A DNA stretch of 64,000 bases from Hellea sp. (GCA_028224375.1 JAOIVW010000006.1:62001-126000); one strand, 5' to 3'; shown: positions 41,470 through 62,283, numbered from the stretch's first letter. Made by a program: numbers and translations. The notes: generated by a model from the sequence alone, not told the origin.

Positions 41470-42375
41470 ATGGCAACAATCGTAAAACTCAGCTCAGGTA
41501 ACTACCGCGTCCAAGTCGGACGTAAAGGTCAATATGCCTCAAAAACGTTCAGACGCAAGGCCGATGCTTACGCATGGGCCCTAGAAGCCGAACGGCGTTC
41601 TGATCAAGGTAGAGCTATCAAAGCTCCAAAGATCACTGGCTTCAACACCTTTGGCCAACTCATAGATTTACACATAGTTGATATGCTGGAAGTTGGAAAA
41701 CCGCTAGGCCGCTCAAAAGAGTTTGCGCTGCGAACTTTGCGTAAGCATCTTGGCAAAATTAAACTCCCTCACCTTAGCCGCGGACGGATAATTAGTTTTG
41801 GCAGACAGCGCGCCAAGGCAGGTGCAGGCCCCGCGACATTGTCAGCCGACATTTCTTACATTCATACCATAATAAGCCATTCAGCAGCCGTACACGGCGT
41901 GAAAATATCGACAGAGGAAATAGACCTAGCGCGTATTGCTCTGCGTAGGCTTGGCCTCATTGGCCGTTCTAATGAGAGAGACCGCCGACCAACACAAATC
42001 GAACTTGACCGCCTTATAAGTTATTTTGAAAACTTTTCTAACACTGAAATACCAGTTGCAAGAATCATAAAATTCGCAATTGCCACCGGCATGAGACAAA
42101 GCGAAATATGTAGAATTACTTGGGAGGACGTCGATGCTCGAACTCGTTGCGTGACAGTACGAGACCGAAAAGACCCTAGACACAAACATGGCAACCATCA
42201 GCGTGTAAGCGGACGCCTGAAACAGAGGCCGCGAAAGCGGCAAGCGTCAGGGATCGCCGCCGTATGGCCGAGACCGCAAAGCGGGCTTGGTTTACAAGAG
42301 CCCGACCCTCAGGGAGACGCCCAAATTCAAGACCCAAATAGCGACTCTCAAATCACCCAACCTCATACCCCATAA
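41470..42375 (+). pseudogene. Tyrosine integrase (dusA-type), C-terminally truncated
   Basis: MATIVKLSSGNYRVQVGRKGQYASKTFRRKADAYAWALEAE; catalytic domain begins FAIATGMRQSEICRITWEDVD but the HxxR/H/Y portion is replaced after ...DPRHKHGNHQ by Arg/Gln-rich unrelated sequence. Confidence 0.82.
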
Positions 42376-50290: not shown

Positions 50291-52357
50291 ATTTCTGATA
50301 AATTAAAGACAAGAATTTCGATCCTTGGTGATTTCGAGCTTACGAGCGCGGATGGGCGGACAGTTCCGATTTCAAATCGTAGAGGCCGGGCGATCTTGGG
50401 AATGCTATGCGTCGTTCCAGGACTTTCTCTGCAGCGGGAACTCGTCAGTAAACTTATCTGGCCCGGACGTTTCAAGCCACAGGCACGGGCCAGCCTTCGT
50501 CAGTGTTTACATGAGTTGAACCGTGAGCTGCAAGCGAGCGGCCTTGAAATACTTCAAACCTCAAACACACAGATTGCTTTGTCTACGATCAGCGTTCAAA
50601 CCGACGTTCAGGAATTGGAAGCCGCCCTTTCAAACCAGGATGCAAAAACAGCCAGCGCTATTTTCGGGCAGACGACTTGCCAGAGTATCCTGTGTGATCT
50701 GAATCTAGGAGAGGAACTCGAAAACTGGCTCTCGGTCCACCGACTTCACCTTGAGAACCGCCTCAGATTGTCAGTAAATCAGCTCTTGGCTGACTTGAAG
50801 ACGACTGTGCAATATACGGCTCATGACACATTGGCCGCCGCTTGGCAGCATTGGTCCGGGGTGGGAAGATTGCAGGACCGTGTAGGGTTGGCAATCCTGC
50901 CCTTCCAACATCTTGATGACTTAGGCGATGAGTCATTTTTGCCGGAAGGTGCAGGTGAAGAACTGTCTTCACGCCTTGGGGCGATTACAGAGATCGCTTT
51001 AGCGAGCCGGACATCCGTACTGGCTCTGCAGAGTCAGTCGATAACCCTGCCGCAAATGGCGGAGAAATTAAACGTCACACATCTTATAGAAGGGACTATG
51101 CATCGAAGGTCCGATGGCGTGAGTCTCTGCATTCGCCTGATTGATGGCCTCAGCGGCATGCAGCTCTGGGAAGATCGGGTGTATGCGAGCGAGACAGACC
51201 TCTTTAGAGGTCGGCAGGTCATCGGTGCCAATATTGTCGCCAGTCTTTGCAAGGCTCTCGGCATCTCACCCTTATCAACTCCTGCGAGACGGATGACGCC
51301 TCATCGCGATGCTTACGCACTCTACTTGCAGGGTCGGTCCCTGTCGCAGAAGACCATGGTTTCAGGCGCGCCTGAAAAGGCCGTCGAATTGCTACAAAAC
51401 GCCTTGGAGATTGATCCTGACTTTGCCGAATGCTGGACAGCACTGGCCGAAGCTTATATTTCGACAATTGTATATACGCCTTGTGTGGACAAAGTTGAGC
51501 GCTCTGCGAAGGCTGCTGAGTGCGCAGAGCGCGCCTTGGCATTAGAGGATAAGCAAGGCTATGCGCACGCAATTCTAAGCATCCATGAGTGGACGAGCTT
51601 TAACCCCTCAAAATCTCTTGAATATGCGCTTCAAGCCTATCGTCTGGAACCAGCCAATGCTGATGTGACCCTGCGTCTCGGCTCATGCCTTCTATATCTC
51701 GGTCGCACCCGTGAGGCCTTACCTCATATTCAGGATGCAATCGACCAAGATCCGGTCAATGGCCGAAACTATGCCATGCTCTGTACGGCCCACCTCAATC
51801 TCGGCAATTATCCTTCGGCTCTGGCAGCCGGTCAAAGCATGGTGGATATGGGCCTTCCGGGCTTCCATCTGGCGCTGACACAGGCCGCTATGGGAAACCA
51901 CGACACCGCCGTTGAGACTTATTATGATATCCGGCGTTTTGTCGGTACGATGATCATGTCCCCTCCAGGGAGTCCAGAAGTCTCGGATGAAGCGCGGGAT
52001 TTCTATCTGCTGACGGCAGCAAAAGGGGTCGTGAGCGGCGATGCAGAGGCGCGTGAGACCTATTCTAATCTGATTGAAATGCTGCATCAGACTCTGTCAG
52101 ACCCTTATGATCACTCTGTGGCGTGGCCGGCCATCTGGATGGGGCATTCAGAGCTTGTCATGAAGATTTATCGGGAATGCATTCACCCTGCCAACATGCC
52201 GGGCCTGATGCATCTCTGGACGGATATTGAGCCCATGAACCGCACCAGAAATCATCCCGGGTTTATGGATTTTGCTGAAGATGTCGGCTTTGTCGACGCG
52301 TGGGAAAAATATGGTTGGCCCGACCTTCTGGCGTCGGACAATCGCGCCAAAGCTTAA
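50291..52357 (+). CDS. Winged-helix/BTAD-like N-terminal domain plus TPR regulator; N-terminus only reachable via ATT at 50291 (ORF track starts 50396)
   Basis: In-frame upstream codons read (I)SDKLKTRISILGDFELTSADGRTVPISNRRGRAILGMLC...LIWPGRFKPQARASLRQCLHELNREL, then VGLAILPFQHLDD..FLPEGAGEELSSRLG and TPR-like repeats. Confidence 0.75.
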   Translation: MSDKLKTRISILGDFELTSADGRTVPISNRRGRAILGMLCVVPGLSLQRELVSKLIWPGRFKPQARASLRQCLHELNRELQASGLEILQTSNTQIALSTISVQTDVQELEAALSNQDAKTASAIFGQTTCQSILCDLNLGEELENWLSVHRLHLENRLRLSVNQLLADLKTTVQYTAHDTLAAAWQHWSGVGRLQDRVGLAILPFQHLDDLGDESFLPEGAGEELSSRLGAITEIALASRTSVLALQSQSITLPQMAEKLNVTHLIEGTMHRRSDGVSLCIRLIDGLSGMQLWEDRVYASETDLFRGRQVIGANIVASLCKALGISPLSTPARRMTPHRDAYALYLQGRSLSQKTMVSGAPEKAVELLQNALEIDPDFAECWTALAEAYISTIVYTPCVDKVERSAKAAECAERALALEDKQGYAHAILSIHEWTSFNPSKSLEYALQAYRLEPANADVTLRLGSCLLYLGRTREALPHIQDAIDQDPVNGRNYAMLCTAHLNLGNYPSALAAGQSMVDMGLPGFHLALTQAAMGNHDTAVETYYDIRRFVGTMIMSPPGSPEVSDEARDFYLLTAAKGVVSGDAEARETYSNLIEMLHQTLSDPYDHSVAWPAIWMGHSELVMKIYRECIHPANMPGLMHLWTDIEPMNRTRNHPGFMDFAEDVGFVDAWEKYGWPDLLASDNRAKA

Positions 52358-52896: not shown

Positions 52897-54150
52897 ATGA
52901 CTCTGCTGAATGAAAAACCAGTACCGACCGCGCGGGGTGAACGCTACGATGTGCTCGACGCGTTGCGGGGCTTTGCGCTGCTCGGGATATTTGCAGCGAA
53001 TATCCGCTTTTTCAGTGGTTGGGAGTTCCTTTCTGAAGCGGATCGTGTTGCGCTTGCTGGCGAGAGCCATGCTCTGTGGGATTTCCTGCACCTCGCCCTC
53101 ATAGACGGAAAATTCTACACATTGTTTTCGCTTTTATTCGGCATTGGCTTTGCGTTGCAGCTTAGCCGATTGGAGCAGCGGGGGACGGCCGCAACGAAAA
53201 TTTATTTGCGCCGGACCTTTATTTTACTGGGGTTTGGCTTCATCCATCTCTTCGTTTTCTGGGAAGGTGACATCCTCACCTCCTATGCCCTGCTCGGGTT
53301 TGTTCTACTCGCAATACGGCGATGGTCTGACAGGGCATTGCTTGTCACAGCGGGCGTTTCCCTGCTGGTCCCACCCATTGGGTATGCGCTCTTTTGGGGG
53401 TTCGGTATCGATCAAAGTCTAGGGCTTTACGGGGTTGCAAGCGGTATTTGTCCATCCTTCTTCACTGACCCGGTCGCTGAGATACGGCTCGCCACGATTG
53501 GGGAACAGTTAACGTGTTCAATAGGCGGCGGCATCGCTCGTTTTGGTTATCTCTTTGACACATGGCGCTGGCCCAAACTCTTCGCCATCATGCTTCTTGG
53601 CCTTTGGGCCGGTCGTCAGCTTGTCCGTGGGGAGTTGCTGGATAACACCAAACTTTTGACGGCTATTCTTGTCATTGGCGGACTTAGCGGCGCGGTCGCT
53701 GGTCCCGTCCTCGCCAGCCTTAACGGGATCGGGTTTCTCAGGCCGCATACCGTGCAGGGCTTTTATGCGGTGATCGCTTATACGTTTGCTGTCATACCGC
53801 TCGGACTGGCCTATGCGGCGGGGTTCGTTCTTCTGTGGCGCGTGGCTCGTCCGGCTTTAAATGTCCTCGCTGCGCCGGGCCGCATGGCGCTGACAAATTA
53901 CCTCACCCAGACAGCGATAGGCCTGATTGTTTTCCTCGGAATCGGCTTCGATCAGGCAGGTCTATGGTCGATCCAGTCGCTCTACCTCTTCGTGGGCGCT
54001 GTGTTTCTGTGCCAAATCATTTTCTCCAATCTCTGGCTCAGCCGCTTTCAATACGGGCCTCTGGAATGGGTTTGGCGGACACTGACATACGGGCAAATGC
54101 CCGGAATGCTGAGCCGTCGTTCGACACCAAAAACGTCGGCAAATTCCTGA
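52897..54150 (+). CDS. DUF418 family membrane protein
   Basis: RYDVLDALRGFALLGIFAANIRFFS...; C-terminal APGRMALTNYLTQTAIGL...GPLEWVWRTLTYGQ. Confidence 0.88.
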   Translation: MTLLNEKPVPTARGERYDVLDALRGFALLGIFAANIRFFSGWEFLSEADRVALAGESHALWDFLHLALIDGKFYTLFSLLFGIGFALQLSRLEQRGTAATKIYLRRTFILLGFGFIHLFVFWEGDILTSYALLGFVLLAIRRWSDRALLVTAGVSLLVPPIGYALFWGFGIDQSLGLYGVASGICPSFFTDPVAEIRLATIGEQLTCSIGGGIARFGYLFDTWRWPKLFAIMLLGLWAGRQLVRGELLDNTKLLTAILVIGGLSGAVAGPVLASLNGIGFLRPHTVQGFYAVIAYTFAVIPLGLAYAAGFVLLWRVARPALNVLAAPGRMALTNYLTQTAIGLIVFLGIGFDQAGLWSIQSLYLFVGAVFLCQIIFSNLWLSRFQYGPLEWVWRTLTYGQMPGMLSRRSTPKTSANS

Positions 54151-54157
54151 GGACCAA

Positions 54158-54895
54158 ATGTTACTGCGACGTCTCACAAAACACATCCAAGACCAGAACT
54201 GGTTTGCGGTCAGCATCGACTTTTTAATCGTCGTCGTCGGTGTCTTTATCGGTTTGCAAGTGCAGGAATGGAGCACGGCACGGGGCGATGATGAACGGCT
54301 GAGATCGCAGTTGAACAGTTTGCGGACTGAACTGGTCATGGCGCGCGGCGATCTCGATGACCACGAATCCTACTATACAGCGAGAACTAACGCCGCTGCC
54401 GAACTGCGCGTGCGGCTTGCAATGCGAGACCCATCGCTGACCGAGGACGAGTTTAATCGGCTCGCAGCCTCGGCGATCCTGAGTCGGTCGTTCAACGTTT
54501 CGTATCGCAACTTCGAAGAACTCTCATTGTCTGGCGCTCTTGCACGGATCTCCGACGATGCGCTTCGTGATCTCGTTTTCCAGTGGGATAATCAACTCAC
54601 AGACATTCGTAATCTTGATGTCTCGAGCGAGGAATTCCGGGCCACGACCATCGTGCCCGCTTATTTATCGACGGTTGTGTTAGGGAATAGTTTCCAGAAA
54701 GATGAACGCTACACAGATATTGTAACCCTGACGGACAGGTTTAAATTTGATCTCGATGGGATCGGCGCCAACCTTGAATTCGAAAATGCGCTTGCAATGC
54801 GCCGCCTGCTGACATTGCAAAAACTCGAGCATCTTAGGGAGTTTCGCGCCATCAGCGAAGACTTGATCGCCGCGCTGGAGGACAGCGCGCCATGA
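54158..54895 (+). CDS. Array paralog 1: single-pass membrane protein (DUF6090-like architecture)
   Basis: MLLRRLTKHIQDQNWFAVSIDFLIVVVGVFIGLQVQEWS..; motif FEELSLSGALARISDDALRDLV. Confidence 0.85.
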   Translation: MLLRRLTKHIQDQNWFAVSIDFLIVVVGVFIGLQVQEWSTARGDDERLRSQLNSLRTELVMARGDLDDHESYYTARTNAAAELRVRLAMRDPSLTEDEFNRLAASAILSRSFNVSYRNFEELSLSGALARISDDALRDLVFQWDNQLTDIRNLDVSSEEFRATTIVPAYLSTVVLGNSFQKDERYTDIVTLTDRFKFDLDGIGANLEFENALAMRRLLTLQKLEHLREFRAISEDLIAALEDSAP

Positions 54896-55668
54896 TCTTC
54901 CGTCGCCTCAAAGCCCACGTCGAAAGGGAGAACTGGTTCGCCGTTTTTCTCGACTTTTGCATCGTCGTGATTGGCGTCTTCATCGGTCTGCAGGTCGCAA
55001 ACTGGAATGAAAGCCGCGCCAATGCCCAACGCGAAACGCAAGTCCTTCAGGAAATTCTCGGTGATTTGCGCGAGGACGCGGTGACTTTGCAGTCTTCCAT
55101 TGAAGCGGCCAAGTTGACCTTTGACTCCACAAATATCCTTTTATTGCGCGCGGACCTCGAGCCCATTACGCGGCTTGTCGTTCCCGTTCAGATCCGTTTG
55201 ATCGATGACGTTGAAATAACAACGCCGACGCCGTTGACCACCGATCCCACACCTCAATTTTGGGCCAGGATTACGACGCGGTTTTTCCCCCAGCAAAGCC
55301 GTACCGCGGTCGAGAGTCTGATTGCGTCGGGTAATTTCTCGATTATCGGGGACCAACAGATCGTACAGGCCCTCCAACAAAACACAGCCCTTTGGGAAAC
55401 TGTTACGACAAGCCACAACTTGACCTACAGGCCGCTAAGAGACCGTGTCGTTTTTGTCGGCCAAAGACATGGCCTTAGCCCGTTCATGACGGTCGATCTC
55501 GATACTCTGGTGGAGATCGTCAAGTCCGATCCAGAGCTGCATGGCGCGATACGGACCAATGCGGAGTTTGCCACTTTTCACTACCAGTCACTGCAAGCCC
55601 TTAAAGCCAACACCGACTCCCTCATAAGTCGGATTGAAGAAGCCCTCGGCATAGAGGGTAAGCCATGA
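54892..55668 (+). CDS. Array paralog 2
   Basis: MIFRRLKAHVERENWFAVFLDFCIVVIGVFIGLQVANWNESRAN; ATGA overlap with previous gene. Confidence 0.87.
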   Translation: MIFRRLKAHVERENWFAVFLDFCIVVIGVFIGLQVANWNESRANAQRETQVLQEILGDLREDAVTLQSSIEAAKLTFDSTNILLLRADLEPITRLVVPVQIRLIDDVEITTPTPLTTDPTPQFWARITTRFFPQQSRTAVESLIASGNFSIIGDQQIVQALQQNTALWETVTTSHNLTYRPLRDRVVFVGQRHGLSPFMTVDLDTLVEIVKSDPELHGAIRTNAEFATFHYQSLQALKANTDSLISRIEEALGIEGKP

Positions 55669-56408
55669 TCCTCCGCCGTATCAAAGCCCATGTCGAAAAA
55701 GAAAACTGGTTCGCGGTTTTTCTCGACTTCTGCATCGTCGTCGTTGGTGTGTTTTTTGGCCTTCAGGTGCAGGCATGGGCAGAGGAAAAAGACCGAGAGC
55801 GGCAGGAAGCCATCTATGCTTTGCGGCTCCACGATGAGGTCACGGAACTGCAGTCGGTACGACAGCCCCTTCTGGCTTTGCGAGAGCGCATCGTCGACAA
55901 TTTGTTCTCTGCAAGGCCATTGCTCTACAGCGAAACTGACCGGACTTTGACCGAAGAAGAGTGTGATAGCCTCGCACTTTCAGCGATCCTCACCAACCCC
56001 ACAGACGACATAGCGACCTTAATTGAGTTACAACAGACGGGCGGGCTTAGGTCCTTTCGCAATGAAAACGTCCTGAGCGCCGTGCGCGACTTTCTTCTGA
56101 CGAGAGCCCGAGCCCGCGATGTCCTAGAAGGGAGCGTGCGAGCGGTTAGGCCTCTCGTGCATGACTATCCGGCGCTCATGCAAATCGCCCCAGATAAAGA
56201 CCCTTCTGACCGATTTTCGGGATTGATCGTGTGTGACCTGAGCGCGATGCGTCAGGACATAGATTTTATGAATACGTTGAGTTGGAATGCGGCGGCTTAT
56301 CAGGAGCATGTTCAAAGCAATAGGCGGGTGAGCGAAAGCCTTGAGGGCCTTCACCAGGCTCTGGATGCGTTCATTGACAAACCCCATGAGATTGGGCTTG
56401 AAGAATGA
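55665..56408 (+). CDS. Array paralog 3
   Basis: MILRRIKAHVEKENWFAVFLDFCIVVVGVFFGLQVQAWAEEKDR; ATGA overlap. Confidence 0.87.
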   Translation: MILRRIKAHVEKENWFAVFLDFCIVVVGVFFGLQVQAWAEEKDRERQEAIYALRLHDEVTELQSVRQPLLALRERIVDNLFSARPLLYSETDRTLTEEECDSLALSAILTNPTDDIATLIELQQTGGLRSFRNENVLSAVRDFLLTRARARDVLEGSVRAVRPLVHDYPALMQIAPDKDPSDRFSGLIVCDLSAMRQDIDFMNTLSWNAAAYQEHVQSNRRVSESLEGLHQALDAFIDKPHEIGLEE

Positions 56409-57136
56409 TCCTCCGCCGCATCAAAGCCCATGTCGAAAAAGAAAACTGGTTCGCGGTTGGCATCGACTTCTGCATCGTCGTGGTCGGTGTGTTTATCGGT
56501 TTGCAGGTCGCAAACTGGAATGAAGCTCGCAGTGAGAACCAGCGCGTCGCCACCCAGCTTGCGAGTTTTCAAACAGAACTCATTCTGGCGCGTGACGACC
56601 TCGCCGCGATGCAAGCCTATTATCAAGATCGGATCGAGAGCGTTGCCACGTTAAGGCATCGGCTTGAACAGGGCGGCGACTTCCCCGCAGATGAGTTTAA
56701 TCCCTTGGTTGTGTCCGCCATCAGAGGGGACGGGCTCAATATGGCATTTCGCAGCTATGAGGAGATCACGACAACAGGCACAATCAGCAAGGTTGCTGAC
56801 GCGCGCTTACGAGATTTGCTTCACGAATGGGATACACAGTTAACCTTTATCAATAATTCTGACATGAGGCTCGAGGACGGGCGAGCCAATTTGATAATCC
56901 CGGCCGTTCTACAAGGGACTATTTTTGGAAACGCGCTGCAAACGGATGAGCGCTACGCAGATTTGACCGTGGCCGAGCGGTTCGAGTTCGACATCGAAGA
57001 GATTCGTACCAATCGAGCCTTAGATGGCGCGCTGGCCATCAGGCACCTGCAAGCCAAACAGCAACTGAATTCCCTCGATGACTTTATCAACATAACGGAA
57101 GCCCTGATCATCGCTTTGAGCGACGGAGACGCGTGA
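56405..57136 (+). CDS. Array paralog 4
   Basis: MILRRIKAHVEKENWFAVGIDFCIVVVGVFIGLQVANWNEARSEN; ATGA overlap; full-length relative of paralog 1. Confidence 0.87.
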   Translation: MILRRIKAHVEKENWFAVGIDFCIVVVGVFIGLQVANWNEARSENQRVATQLASFQTELILARDDLAAMQAYYQDRIESVATLRHRLEQGGDFPADEFNPLVVSAIRGDGLNMAFRSYEEITTTGTISKVADARLRDLLHEWDTQLTFINNSDMRLEDGRANLIIPAVLQGTIFGNALQTDERYADLTVAERFEFDIEEIRTNRALDGALAIRHLQAKQQLNSLDDFINITEALIIALSDGDA

Positions 57137-57906
57137 TGCTGTTTCGCCGTATCAAAGCACACGTTGAGAAAGAGAACTGGTTCGCGGTAGGGATTGATTT
57201 TCTCATCGTCGTGGTGGGCGTCTTCATCGGTATTCAGGTCGCGAACTGGAACGAGGATCAGGGCCGCAAGGCGCAGGAGCATTCTTACCTTGTCTTGCTG
57301 CATGATGAACTGGTGCAAAACGCTGATCAGTCTGCGCGTTTGCTTGAGTACTACACTATTGTCACGGATGCCGGGGAGCGCGCGCTCGATTTCTTAAAGC
57401 GGGACGAAGCGTGCATGGACGATTGCGAAGACCTTCTCATAGATTTCTTCCACGCCTCGCAACTCAGGTCTATCACATTTGAAAAAACAGCTTTTCGGGA
57501 GGCGACCGAGCTCGGGTTTCCGTCCGACAACGCTCTGCGTGAAAAGCTGTTCACGACCTATGATCTGACCGACAGCTTTGATGTGGTCAACCAAGTGTCT
57601 CCGCCCTTTCGGGAAGCGGTTCGCGAATATATCGGACCCAATGCCGCCCGGATTCTGTGGAGTGAGTGCTGGGAGTTGGACTTGGCGACCGTAACTGAAA
57701 TACTGACACGCGGGTGTGCGGAACGATTGGACGCCGTCGACGCCGCCGGAATGCTGCGTGACATCAAGCGCGATCCAGATATTAAGGGAATGTTGCGTTA
57801 CTCGCTTACCCAAAACATCTTCGCCATGCACAACTATCCTGCCGTGACGGACCGAACTACCGCAACGGCGGACATGGTGGCCGCTGAAATCAAGACAGTT
57901 CGATGA
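57136..57906 (+). CDS. Array paralog 5
   Basis: MLFRRIKAHVEKENWFAVGIDFLIVVVGVFIGIQVANWNEDQGRK; TGATG junction with paralog 4 (ORF track uses GTG at 57133). Confidence 0.86.
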   Translation: MLFRRIKAHVEKENWFAVGIDFLIVVVGVFIGIQVANWNEDQGRKAQEHSYLVLLHDELVQNADQSARLLEYYTIVTDAGERALDFLKRDEACMDDCEDLLIDFFHASQLRSITFEKTAFREATELGFPSDNALREKLFTTYDLTDSFDVVNQVSPPFREAVREYIGPNAARILWSECWELDLATVTEILTRGCAERLDAVDAAGMLRDIKRDPDIKGMLRYSLTQNIFAMHNYPAVTDRTTATADMVAAEIKTVR

Positions 57907-58391
57907 CCCTTGAGCAAATTGCGCTAATCGCTCAGATCATTGGCGTCGCTGTTGTCGCAGTGACACTGATCTATTTGACCATTCAGGTGCGTCAGGGCGC
58001 TGAGCAGATGAGATCCGAGTCCCGGCAGGCGCAGCTCGCCAATGATCAGACGGGGGTTTATAAATTTGTTGAATTTCCAGACCTCGGACGCATCGCCTCT
58101 CAGGGTGAGACGCCGACCTTTGAAGAGAAAACGCAACTCTTCTTCTGGATGATCGGACAGCTTCGGGCCCGTGAATTTGAGTATCTCCAATATAAAAGCG
58201 GGGCGATGACGAAAGAAGCTTGGGAAACTTATCGCGACGTGATTTTCTTCGTACTTGGCACGCCGAGGACCCGGGCCTTATGGGAACTTTGTAAAGGCTA
58301 TTTCAATGCCGACTTCGCCCAAATGGCTGACGATATGGTCAAAGATGTCCCGCCAATCCCACTTTGGGATGAAATCTCAAAAATAAAGTAA
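57903..58391 (+). CDS. Small membrane-anchored protein embedded in the array
   Basis: MTLEQIALIAQIIGVAVVAVTLIYLTIQVRQGAEQMRSESRQAQ; ATGA overlap with paralog 5. Confidence 0.8.
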   Translation: MTLEQIALIAQIIGVAVVAVTLIYLTIQVRQGAEQMRSESRQAQLANDQTGVYKFVEFPDLGRIASQGETPTFEEKTQLFFWMIGQLRAREFEYLQYKSGAMTKEAWETYRDVIFFVLGTPRTRALWELCKGYFNADFAQMADDMVKDVPPIPLWDEISKIK

Positions 58392-58407
58392 TCATGGAAA
58401 CCTCAAA

Positions 58408-59148
58408 ATGATCTTTCGCCGCATCAAAGCCCATGTCGAGAAAGAAAACTGGTTCGCCGTCTTCCTCGATTTTTGTATCGTGGTGGTCGGCGTCTTCATC
58501 GGTATTCAGGTCGCGAATTGGAATGCATCTCAGTTTGAGGCCCGCGAAGAAACGGCCATTATTGAAAGGCTTCAGTCTGATTTTAAGCGAATTGAGCAGG
58601 ATGCTGACCGCAGCCTTGCGTTCCACACGCAGATGACTGAGGATATGCGGACTGTGTTGCGGTCCCTGCGCTCCGGCGAACTAAAGGATGAAAACATTCC
58701 AGCCTTTGAACGCGCGCTTTTGCTAGGGACTGGATTTCAAACAAGCGCTGATCGGTCTGGGAGCTTTACGGAACTTATGTCCTCGGGCCGAGGCAACATC
58801 CTGCGGGATCGCGACCTGCTTCATGCTTTGGTCGATTATGAAGATTTTCTGGAGCGTTTCGCAATTGCACGAAGCTACTATGTTGAAAGTGCGCTGCTCG
58901 CGACACGCGATTTCAAGGATGGGTTCGAATACGATATTGAGTTGCGGTTCACGGAAGACATCTTTGCTTTGGTCGAACAGGAACAGTCACTCGTCTCTTA
59001 CGACTTCGAGATGTTGGCCTCTGACCCGACTTTCTACAATGCAGTGGAGGAATTACTCTTCGTGCACAGTGGGTTTACCATTTGGCGCTCACGGATCAGC
59101 GATCGCATTGATATCATTCAACAGAACCTTGCCGCAAAGGAGCCGTGA
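58408..59148 (+). CDS. Array paralog 6
   Basis: MIFRRIKAHVEKENWFAVFLDFCIVVVGVFIGIQVANWNASQFEARE; FTELMSSGRGNILRDRDLLHALVDYEDF. Confidence 0.87.
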   Translation: MIFRRIKAHVEKENWFAVFLDFCIVVVGVFIGIQVANWNASQFEAREETAIIERLQSDFKRIEQDADRSLAFHTQMTEDMRTVLRSLRSGELKDENIPAFERALLLGTGFQTSADRSGSFTELMSSGRGNILRDRDLLHALVDYEDFLERFAIARSYYVESALLATRDFKDGFEYDIELRFTEDIFALVEQEQSLVSYDFEMLASDPTFYNAVEELLFVHSGFTIWRSRISDRIDIIQQNLAAKEP

Positions 59149-59240: not shown

Positions 59241-59888
59241 CTATAGATCAATGCTTTCCGAGAGTGCGAGAGCATCTTCGACCTCAACCCCTAGATACTT
59301 AACAGTGCTATCAATCTTTTCATGACCAAGGAGAAGTTGAACTGCTCTGAGGTTTCCGGTCTTGCGATAAATAAGAGTTGCCTTCGTTCGCCTTAGCGAA
59401 TGTGTAGCATAAGACGACTTAGGCAGATCAATCGACCCGATCCATTTTTTGACAATCCTTCCGTATTGTCGGGTTGTCATAGCAGAGCTCCGATCTTTAC
59501 GACTTGGAAAAAGCCAATCGTAGATGTTTAGGTTTTTAGAGTTAATCCAGTCCACCAAAGCTTCCCTGGTTTGCTTTGTAATTTCGAACTGAACTGGCTT
59601 GCCAGTTTTCCTTTGGATGATTTTGGTGCGAGACCTAATCTCATTCCCTGTTTGAACATCAGAAACCGTCAATGTCACCAAATCACATCCTCGTAATTTG
59701 CTGTCCAAAGCTAAGTTGAAGAGTGCCAAATCTCGCTTATGGTCGGCCAATTGAAGCCTGACCCTTATAGCCCATACCTGTTGAGGGGTTAGCGGCGATT
59801 TTTGCCCTATAAGTTTACCTTTATTCCACGGGCGTTTGTCTGCCACGACAGTTTTTTTTGATCCGCATTCCATTTTCAATTCCTCCAT
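59241..59888 (-). CDS. Stand-alone tyrosine recombinase (catalytic-domain type)
   Basis: PLTPQQVWAIRVRLQLADHKRDLALFNLALDSKLRGCDLVTL, HSLRRTKATLIYRKTGNLRAVQLLLGHEKIDSTVKYLGVEVEDAL; start taken at MEELKMECGSKKT. Confidence 0.88.
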   Translation of the reverse strand: MEELKMECGSKKTVVADKRPWNKGKLIGQKSPLTPQQVWAIRVRLQLADHKRDLALFNLALDSKLRGCDLVTLTVSDVQTGNEIRSRTKIIQRKTGKPVQFEITKQTREALVDWINSKNLNIYDWLFPSRKDRSSAMTTRQYGRIVKKWIGSIDLPKSSYATHSLRRTKATLIYRKTGNLRAVQLLLGHEKIDSTVKYLGVEVEDALALSESIDL

Positions 59889-60055
59889 AGTGGAATTTTG
59901 GATATGCAAATTATGGGCTAACCTAGTTATCCTCATACCAGATGAGGTGGATGGCTCCTGTCCCCGGCGTCGCAATGCGCCATAATGCAGATCTATCGAA
60001 ACTGCTGACTAATAGGAGCCACCCAAGCAGAAGAAAGGTGGCGGCACTTTTAGCT

Positions 60056-60907
60056 CTAGGACTTGAGTAATTTTTTCAATTTTGATTCAAAAAATCTATT
60101 ACTCCAAAGACCGAGAGACTCCGCTTCAACAGGCCGCAGAAAACGCCTCACATCGAGCCTGGCATCTTCCCAGTCGATTTCGTGAATTTTGCTAGTAATT
60201 TGCGTTTCAAACCAATTTCTATCGACGCTAAGGCTCTTATCTTCTGACCAAGGGCCAAACTGACGAAGGGCAGCTTCTAAATGTGGCAGGTTTGGAAAAA
60301 TGCCCTGCGCAACATACCAAGAGAAGTCGTACCAATCGCGCCCCTTTACATATTCCCTGCACAAGAGCGCGTGAATTTTGAGTGCGAAGTTAGAAGGAAG
60401 ATCTTGATGGCGCACCTCGTAATCCACCGGAAAGTCGAGGAATGTAAAGGCATCGATTGAGTGGACTGGCGGTTCAACATCGATTTCCAGTTTAATCTTG
60501 AGCTTCTTTCGAGCATCGCGCGCGCCAAATGATAAGCCCAACTGGTTGGCCACCGAATTATCTTTGATTACAGCGTTTCTTATACGCCTATCCATCTGCT
60601 CTCTCGAAACTGTTTCAGGATTCAAGCCATATTCTTGAAATGTCTCAGTCAATATTTTTAAGTAGGGCGCCCAATCAAATTTTGGGTTGGGCTCAATCAA
60701 CATGAAATCGAGGTCTTCGGAAAACCGCGGCAGCTTGTGAAGGATTCGCAAACTCGTTCCACCCTGAAAAACAGCAACATCAAAAAACCTCGCTCTCCAA
60801 AGCCCGTACAAAGCAACCTCTTGAATGATTTCCTTCGTGGCATTCTCTTCTTCGATTGCGTTTGCAGCCTTATACTCAGCTAGTCTTGCCTGAATAATAT
60901 CATTCAT
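60056..60907 (-). CDS. AbiEii/AbiGii-type nucleotidyltransferase toxin
   Basis: FQGGTSLRILHKLPRFSEDLDFMLIEP; HALLCREYVKGRDWYDFSWYV; start at MNDIIQARLAEY. Confidence 0.88.
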   Translation of the reverse strand: MNDIIQARLAEYKAANAIEEENATKEIIQEVALYGLWRARFFDVAVFQGGTSLRILHKLPRFSEDLDFMLIEPNPKFDWAPYLKILTETFQEYGLNPETVSREQMDRRIRNAVIKDNSVANQLGLSFGARDARKKLKIKLEIDVEPPVHSIDAFTFLDFPVDYEVRHQDLPSNFALKIHALLCREYVKGRDWYDFSWYVAQGIFPNLPHLEAALRQFGPWSEDKSLSVDRNWFETQITSKIHEIDWEDARLDVRRFLRPVEAESLGLWSNRFFESKLKKLLKS

Positions 60908-60917
60908 GTCGTTACCT

Positions 60918-61595
60918 TTATCGCTCTCGTCGTGCCGAAGATTGCCTGTCAAAAACTGCAGCTTCTAATCCATTCAGAAAGTTACTTGCGGCCTTATGCT
61001 TATAAACGTCCACAAGAGCTTCGAAGTCGCGGCGACACAATTGCAGGAGAGATGAGCGTTCAATGCGCAATCCAGACTCAATCCAGCTTATTCCCGCCCA
61101 GTCTTGCTTACGATAGGCCACAATGTCCATCAGTGCCCTCAGAGGTGATGCAACAAGCGATGGCTGCAAGCTTAGTACATGTCTCTCAACGCCTGACAAA
61201 AAACCTGACGTGTGAAGTGCCAAGGGCCTAAATTCAAATTGCCCAAATGTTTCGTGGTGAACGTTTTTTGACTTTCGCCCTGGCGTAACGCTTACCGTCG
61301 TGAAAACTGCTTCTGGAATCCACCCATGAAACGCTAAAGCTGTTTCCATGGACACATAGCTACCTACGACTAAGGTCTGGGCCAGCGCAAAGGGGTGAAC
61401 AGGGTTTGTTCGGCAACTTTCCGCCAACACATAGTGTCCGCGTTTGATCCGAATAAGGTCTCCTGACTTCAAGGCCCGTTTTACCTGACCATAGCGACGA
61501 TCATCGCTACCACCAATGATGCGCGCCAATTGCCGATCATTTAAAATACGGTCCGTATATCCGGCGTGAGTGATGAGTGAAATCAGAGTGGTCAT
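60918..61595 (-). CDS. AbiEi-type antitoxin
   Basis: ALKSGDLIRIKRGHYVLAE, SYVSMETALAFHGWIPE, SPLRALMDIVAYRKQDW; directly upstream of the AbiEii-like gene. Confidence 0.82.
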   Translation of the reverse strand: MTTLISLITHAGYTDRILNDRQLARIIGGSDDRRYGQVKRALKSGDLIRIKRGHYVLAESCRTNPVHPFALAQTLVVGSYVSMETALAFHGWIPEAVFTTVSVTPGRKSKNVHHETFGQFEFRPLALHTSGFLSGVERHVLSLQPSLVASPLRALMDIVAYRKQDWAGISWIESGLRIERSSLLQLCRRDFEALVDVYKHKAASNFLNGLEAAVFDRQSSARRER

Positions 61596-61926: not shown

Positions 61927-62283
61927 TCATCTAAGATATAAGGGCGATAGAAGCAGCGCTGTCAAAATTACGTCTACGGCGATACCGACCCAAATGATTT
62001 TGATAGGGCATTTATCTATGACTGTGAATGTCGATTTTATGACAGCGGCGGCTAGGGCGGCATATCCGAAGAAGGTGAAGAACTCCGGGTTTTGCTTGAA
62101 GAGTAAAATCAGAGGCAGCGTTGTGAGAAAGCAGCCGAAAAGGACTCTGATTTCGACAAGCCCTACTTTTGTTTCCGGCGCTAGGCCGACAAGTTTGCCC
62201 ATGTGAAGCGGGCGGAACAGACCGTTCAACCCCACCATCAGCGCCAGCGCGGCGCCTAAATTTTGGAGAATGAGCGTATTCAT
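61927..62283 (-). CDS. Small integral membrane protein (DUF4345-like)
   Basis: 118 aa, four hydrophobic helices, LGAALALMVGLNGLFRPLHMGKLVGL. Confidence 0.6.
   Translation of the reverse strand: MNTLILQNLGAALALMVGLNGLFRPLHMGKLVGLAPETKVGLVEIRVLFGCFLTTLPLILLFKQNPEFFTFFGYAALAAAVIKSTFTVIDKCPIKIIWVGIAVDVILTALLLSPLYLR

Follow-up and report, generated by a model that had tools for sequence, protein, structure and literature searches.

In the EsaG and TipC arrays, which encode T7SS immunity proteins, recombination within conserved blocks alters both copy number and sequence; the TipC protein is bound to the membrane and directed outward (Garrett et al. 2022, PMC9484751). TsaI is a membrane protein with five TM helices that shows little evidence of recombination (PMC9484751). 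The same paper summarises the lpl genes of Staphylococcus aureus as tandem lipoprotein genes containing a conserved block of ~130 nt through which neighbours recombine (PMC9484751). No paper naming either DUF6090 or PF19578 was found in the literature searched, nor any description of the DUF6090 module, its arrays, their recombination or their disulfides.

Here we analyse a 64,000-nucleotide stretch of DNA (the window) from a marine alphaproteobacterium, in which positions 54158-59148 hold six same-strand paralogues arranged head to tail. The family to which they belong resembles EsaG and TipC in forming strings of non-identical paralogues that vary in copy number and recombine through shared blocks, and resembles TipC in being, as predicted below, membrane-bound and outward-facing. 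The proteins are nevertheless unrelated, EsaG and TipC loci encode a cognate toxin whereas none was found at DUF6090-type arrays, and here the single block is a 5’ TM anchor, with interspecies transfer as a prominent feature. TsaI shares with the array family a conserved N-terminal membrane part, a divergent remainder and multi-copy arrays, but the array family has one TM helix and clear recombination. The lpl genes, as summarised there, are likewise tandem, envelope-anchored paralogues with one conserved recombining block, although they encode Gram-positive lipoproteins with a central block and no sequence relation is claimed. A preliminary description of the locus had put it forward as a candidate for an undescribed system; this stands in so far as DUF6090 (PF19578) is absent from the literature searched, but paralogue arrays of this recombining type had already been described for other protein families (PMC9484751). 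What is new, as far as that literature extends, is that in DUF6090 the shared block is a TM anchor at the 5’ end and the part fused to it is a periplasmic domain that is exchanged.

All six paralogues, encoded on the + strand, begin with a membrane-anchor module of ~38 aa and differ in their C-terminal halves. Gene 1 (54158..54895, 245 aa) carries the module variant MLLRRLTKHIQDQNWFAV and has a C-terminal domain 42% identical to that of gene 4 (56405..57136, 243 aa). Gene 2 (54892..55668) encodes 258 aa; the C-terminal domains of gene 3 (55665..56408, 247 aa) and gene 5 (57136..57906, 256 aa) contain two and four cysteines respectively; and gene 6 (58408..59148) encodes 246 aa. The first module copy (54158..54271, 38 codons) consists of a basic head followed by a TM helix with D/E21, G28, Q34 and W38, and the same module starts again at 54892, 55665, 56405, 57136 and 58408, forming a six-copy direct repeat of ~136 nt whose copies are 60–80% identical to the reference copy. 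The near-constant N-terminus reported for all six reading frames is thus present in each, and the divergence reported for the C-termini is equally clear, with 66–83% nucleotide identity among the modules of the window versus 18–42% amino acid identity among the C-terminal parts. Synonymous codons agree between modules at 0.56, versus 0.38 expected from codon usage. Repetition of the module is not a chance effect, as there are six copies here and 396 same-family ORFs in 110 loci.

Junctions 1/2, 2/3 and 3/4 are ATGA overlaps and junction 4/5 is TGATG, so that the first five genes are overlap-coupled as the preliminary description had it; this takes ATG 57136 as the start of gene 5, a codon confirmed to be there, in place of the upstream GTG used by the automated ORF call. 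The row of six, on the other hand, had been read with a gap at 57903-58391, and although the six paralogues are real, that interval is filled by a seventh coupled gene of a second family, referred to as p6 (57903..58391, + strand, 162 aa), which is joined to gene 5 by ATGA and followed after 16 nt by the start of gene 6. Arrays in relatives are built in the same manner: neighbouring pairs lie on the same strand in 289 of 290 cases (66 loci), and of the 250 junctions closer than 200 nt, 181 are at −4 and 47 at −1 (91% ATGA- or TGATG/TAATG-type). Based on this same-strand layout and the overlapping stop and start codons, the cassettes are probably co-transcribed and translationally coupled, with the whole set made together; the layout thus favours the co-production proposed earlier, as an argument from gene arrangement. 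A shufflon or silent-cassette system of antigenic variation was rejected, as the cassettes are complete from start to stop codon, the pairs lie on one strand with coupled junctions in 289 of 290 cases and the domains are under purifying selection.

The resemblance to DUF6090 proposed in the preliminary description is supported by profile searches. Against Pfam PF19578 (gathering cut-off 23.5 bits), gene 2 scores 24.0, gene 6 scores 23.3, which is below the cut-off by 0.2, genes 4 and 5 score 14–15 and genes 1 and 3 are unmatched, whilst of the 146 aligned family members 86 reach E ≤ 0.01, the best at 1.3e-8. A canonical DUF6090 protein (L032:7836-8651; 40.3 bits to PF19578) shares an array with members of the window family, and hhalign aligns the family profile (A3) to it with a probability of 98.7% (E 3.4e-16, 134 columns). 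Since gene 2 passes the cut-off, more than half of the aligned members match and the profile aligns to the canonical protein, the array family is treated as a divergent branch of DUF6090. Both share the TM exit ..VVxGxxIxxQxxNWN and the E-L-x-x-x-G motif; they differ in that several array-family members score under the Pfam cut-off, and the PF19578 model alone gave no match at 1e-5 in 299 genomes of the phylum, including that of the window. The weak C-terminal motif noticed at first sight is real and family-wide, with E122 conserved in 80%, L123 in 73%, G127 in 94% and R138 in 70% of the 146 members. Searches of every array gene with Pfam, NCBIfam, PADLOC and PHROGs returned nothing beyond DUF6090; a known anti-phage defence protein was rejected as a candidate, array genes having no match in PADLOC and none in PHROGs.

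Within the order, 83 of 200 genomes (about 40%) carry the family, which also occurs in 3 of 145 other genomes sampled across the class and in several gammaproteobacteria. Copy number ranges from 1 to about 25 per genome, with up to 25 confirmed; some genomes have 36–45 preliminary candidates, only 13 of them scored.

The charge distribution (+2.1 in the basic head ahead of the TM helix, −1.5 in the acidic stretch after it) predicts a periplasmic location for the C-terminal domain. The cysteine content of this domain in 318 proteins is 0 in 93, 1 in 7, 2 in 202, 3 in 1 and 4 in 15, so that the count is odd in 8 and even (0, 2 or 4) in 310, whereas control protein windows have no even/odd bias; a second, partly overlapping set (0 in 40, 1 in 1, 2 in 61, 4 in 13) contains one odd count in 115. 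This parity is the decisive sequence evidence for a periplasmic, disulfide-bearing domain, in line with the earlier proposal of single-pass envelope proteins; the charge pattern also argues for a C-terminal domain outside the cytoplasm. Aligned cysteine pairs occupy three alternative positions, (181,187), (101,198) and (90,204), and there are also a four-cysteine and a cysteine-free class, as would be predicted of one fold that is stabilised by disulfides in different places. The AlphaFold2 model of gene 6 (pLDDT 93) has a long helix leading outward from the membrane, then a helical bundle and a β hairpin at 173-198, and ends with a further helix; a fold search with it found no match in the PDB or among viral structures at E ≤ 0.001, and the family profile against PDB sequences gave a best E of 0.065, which is not meaningful. 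Within the TM helix, D/E21, G28 and Q34 are near-invariant (315, 315 and 301 of the 318 proteins).

How the arrays change is illustrated by two congeneric species, G016 and G032, in which they are kept at the same place. Shared C-terminal domains are mostly 93–99% identical at the nucleotide level, in scrambled order, and their dS is 0.03–0.21 versus 0.65–0.96 for the flanking genes. In several pairs the domain is 94–99% identical versus 76–83% for the 114 nt that encode the anchor, a mismatch also seen between other genomes; the identity profile drops inside the module, beyond which lie unrelated neighbours. Across genomes, in 26 pairs whose domains are at least 78% identical and which are not fully independent of one another, identity averages 79% over the first 54 nt and 88% over the domain (Wilcoxon p 0.002), although the gap reaches 10 points, that is a clearly different anchor, in only 11 of the 26. 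The pair L034/L015 joins MAGs labelled as gamma- and alphaproteobacteria, where a binning error is possible. Nearest-relative counts agree: 103 of 268 members have their closest module in their own genome (6.5 expected), but only 12 of 268 have their closest C-terminal domain there (6.2 expected), which indicates that anchors are homogenised within a genome whilst domains are drawn from a pool that genomes share. Together, these sequence comparisons show recombination bounded by the module and transfer between genomes. A precise site-specific recombination point is not supported, as the codon-by-codon profile is a gradient through the module, even though stub cassettes have a junction near codon 18 in common. 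The constancy of the anchor may derive largely from gene conversion rather than from a common partner. At the codon level, the median dN/dS of 0.22 over 20 domain pairs shows the domains to be under purifying selection, and because of this value their diversity is read as reassortment of old variants, not fast point change.

The array lies in a variable region, as judged from two features of its surroundings. A DUF418 membrane protein gene (52897..54150, + strand) ends 7 nt before gene 1, possibly on the same transcript, and has no match in nine congeners; synteny with the one congener that retains the right flank ends at 61929. RidA and a TPR/FlgO-type protein are also encoded upstream, and downstream a convergent tyrosine integrase gene (59241..59975, − strand) directly adjoins the array and is followed by an AbiEi/AbiEii pair. 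The integrase is not recurrent beside arrays: integrases do not form a recurrent neighbour cluster and are not among the 25 most frequent neighbour Pfam families. A recombinase-associated island of acquired immunity was rejected, since in spite of the integrase in the window no recombinase is recurrently linked to arrays elsewhere. No relatives of the array genes were found among the viral contigs, phages and plasmids searched, and there is thus no evidence for phage or plasmid carriage.

The reading that we favour, with a probability of roughly 0.6, is that of a repertoire of periplasmic proteins, anchored in the inner membrane, that can expand and that recombines. The sequences show its modular, horizontally exchanged make-up: every gene is a cassette in which the common 5’ module supplies a short basic head on the cytoplasmic side and a single TM helix, and the remainder encodes an old, diverged helical domain of common fold in the periplasm; homologous recombination inside the module adds, removes and re-joins domains, often from other species. 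In addition, members would work independently, D/E21, G28 and Q34 would let the anchor dock on a membrane partner that all have in common, and each domain would bind a different envelope-exposed ligand. Exchange by recombination in the anchor suggests such a swappable repertoire of binding proteins. The opposite idea, a fixed hetero-oligomeric envelope complex in which the paralogues are joined in set stoichiometry via their common TM helix, would account for the tight translational coupling and for near-invariant helix residues that could pack against a like helix; it is very improbable, as copy number among relatives varies from 1 to about 25, and C-terminal types differ between genomes while shared types move singly and acquire new neighbours. 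The stoichiometric set suggested in the preliminary description is therefore not supported, given that composition varies between genomes, members are gained or exchanged singly and the nearest C-terminal relative is almost always in another genome. The arrays might also be weakly selected accretions, in which module homology eases integration and each copy brings little benefit. Some arrays do contain truncated copies and stub mini-cassettes, and some p6 copies carry in-frame stops; with a dN/dS of about 0.2 and conserved cysteine pairs that show the domains to be kept functional, and with the family established in so many genomes of the order, such accretion is improbable.

A further reading is a set of sensors: every periplasmic domain would respond to its own cue, and the signals would pass by way of the common TM module to a single partner, perhaps p6. 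Relatives of p6 comprise 31 distinct ORFs, all on the strand of the array wherever the locus shows one and most adjoining array genes, and they occur in 15 of 61 genomes, all within the 27 that carry arrays (hypergeometric 2.5e-7), an association partly built in, since the p6 query was made from array-adjacent members. The protein has one TM helix with a conserved intramembrane acid, and from the charge pattern and from cysteines that do not come in pairs its C-terminal domain is predicted to face the cytoplasm, a topology opposite to that of the array proteins. Common ancestry of the two families was rejected (hhalign probability 1.8); the predicted fold of p6 is all helical (pLDDT 86.5), gives no functional lead and had no match in the PDB at E ≤ 0.001. 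The p6 neighbourhood, topology and acid are what a signalling partner would lead one to expect, but 12 of the 27 genomes with arrays gave no p6 match, neither protein bears an effector domain and the choice of query biases the association, which leaves a sensor set rather unlikely.

As to what the favoured repertoire would do, passive protection against diverse foreign envelope-acting proteins or peptides, in the manner of orphan immunity arrays, is the likeliest single function, tentatively so, because the nearest precedent is that of recombining immunity-gene arrays. Next to the arrays, however, the 25 commonest Pfam families of 126 neighbours included neither a cognate toxin nor an effector. 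There is no T6SS sheath gene in the 61 genomes, including the host, and any immunity would therefore face foreign attackers or another delivery route. The low dN/dS gives no sign of an ongoing residue-level arms race, which counts against immunity. It is conceivable, at a similarly tentative level, that such bacteria possess a widespread Gram-negative repertoire of dozens of co-made periplasmic recognition proteins, with an interchangeable anchor and a domain pool shared between genera, that protects against, or senses, diverse proteins directed at the envelope and has p6 as its partner.

For a family that had no function attached to it, these results provide a testable architecture, comprising the location of the variable domain, its anchoring, its exchange and the single cassette as the unit of selection. 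If the domains are specific binders, the arrays would constitute a modular periplasmic recognition repertoire that evolves like immunity-gene arrays, and whose composition could be read directly from the genome.

Stub mini-cassettes, in which a REP-like palindromic repeat is joined onto the initial 42-57 nt of the constant module (the first ~38 codons of each array gene), end at the 3' side in a stop codon that often touches the ATG of the following gene. They occur in three genomes with three different REP-like repeats, and in all three the module/repeat junctions fall inside the CAGAACTGGTTCGCGGT stretch. Among loci related to the window array, they are located in L029 (2188-2421, 6776-7009, 7779-7991, 7991-8224 and 10999-11199), L034 (5451-5687 and 6469-6876), L069 (7810-8013), L070 (7001-7216), L096 (8801-9013) and L129 (8592-8786). 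Separately, a small multi-TM protein (FFFFYSLVLFGIVAVFFPLHALVNADYLPPIRP) is found repeatedly within arrays at L090 (14225-14866), L092 (8236-8892) and L022 (8484-9092), which represent three genomes.

TPR proteins, most of which carry a RRNVFRVAAAYLVVGW segment at the N-terminus, are over-represented in the vicinity of arrays: of 65 matches across 61 genomes, about 14 fall within ~10 kb of an array by our own count; examples are found in L091 (9392-16783) and the window (50396-52357). In the variable region on the right side of the window array, an AbiEii/AbiEi type IV toxin-antitoxin pair (60056-61595) adjoins an integrase (59241-59975). A second tyrosine-integrase ORF, a short one, lies at another place in the window (41470-42375).
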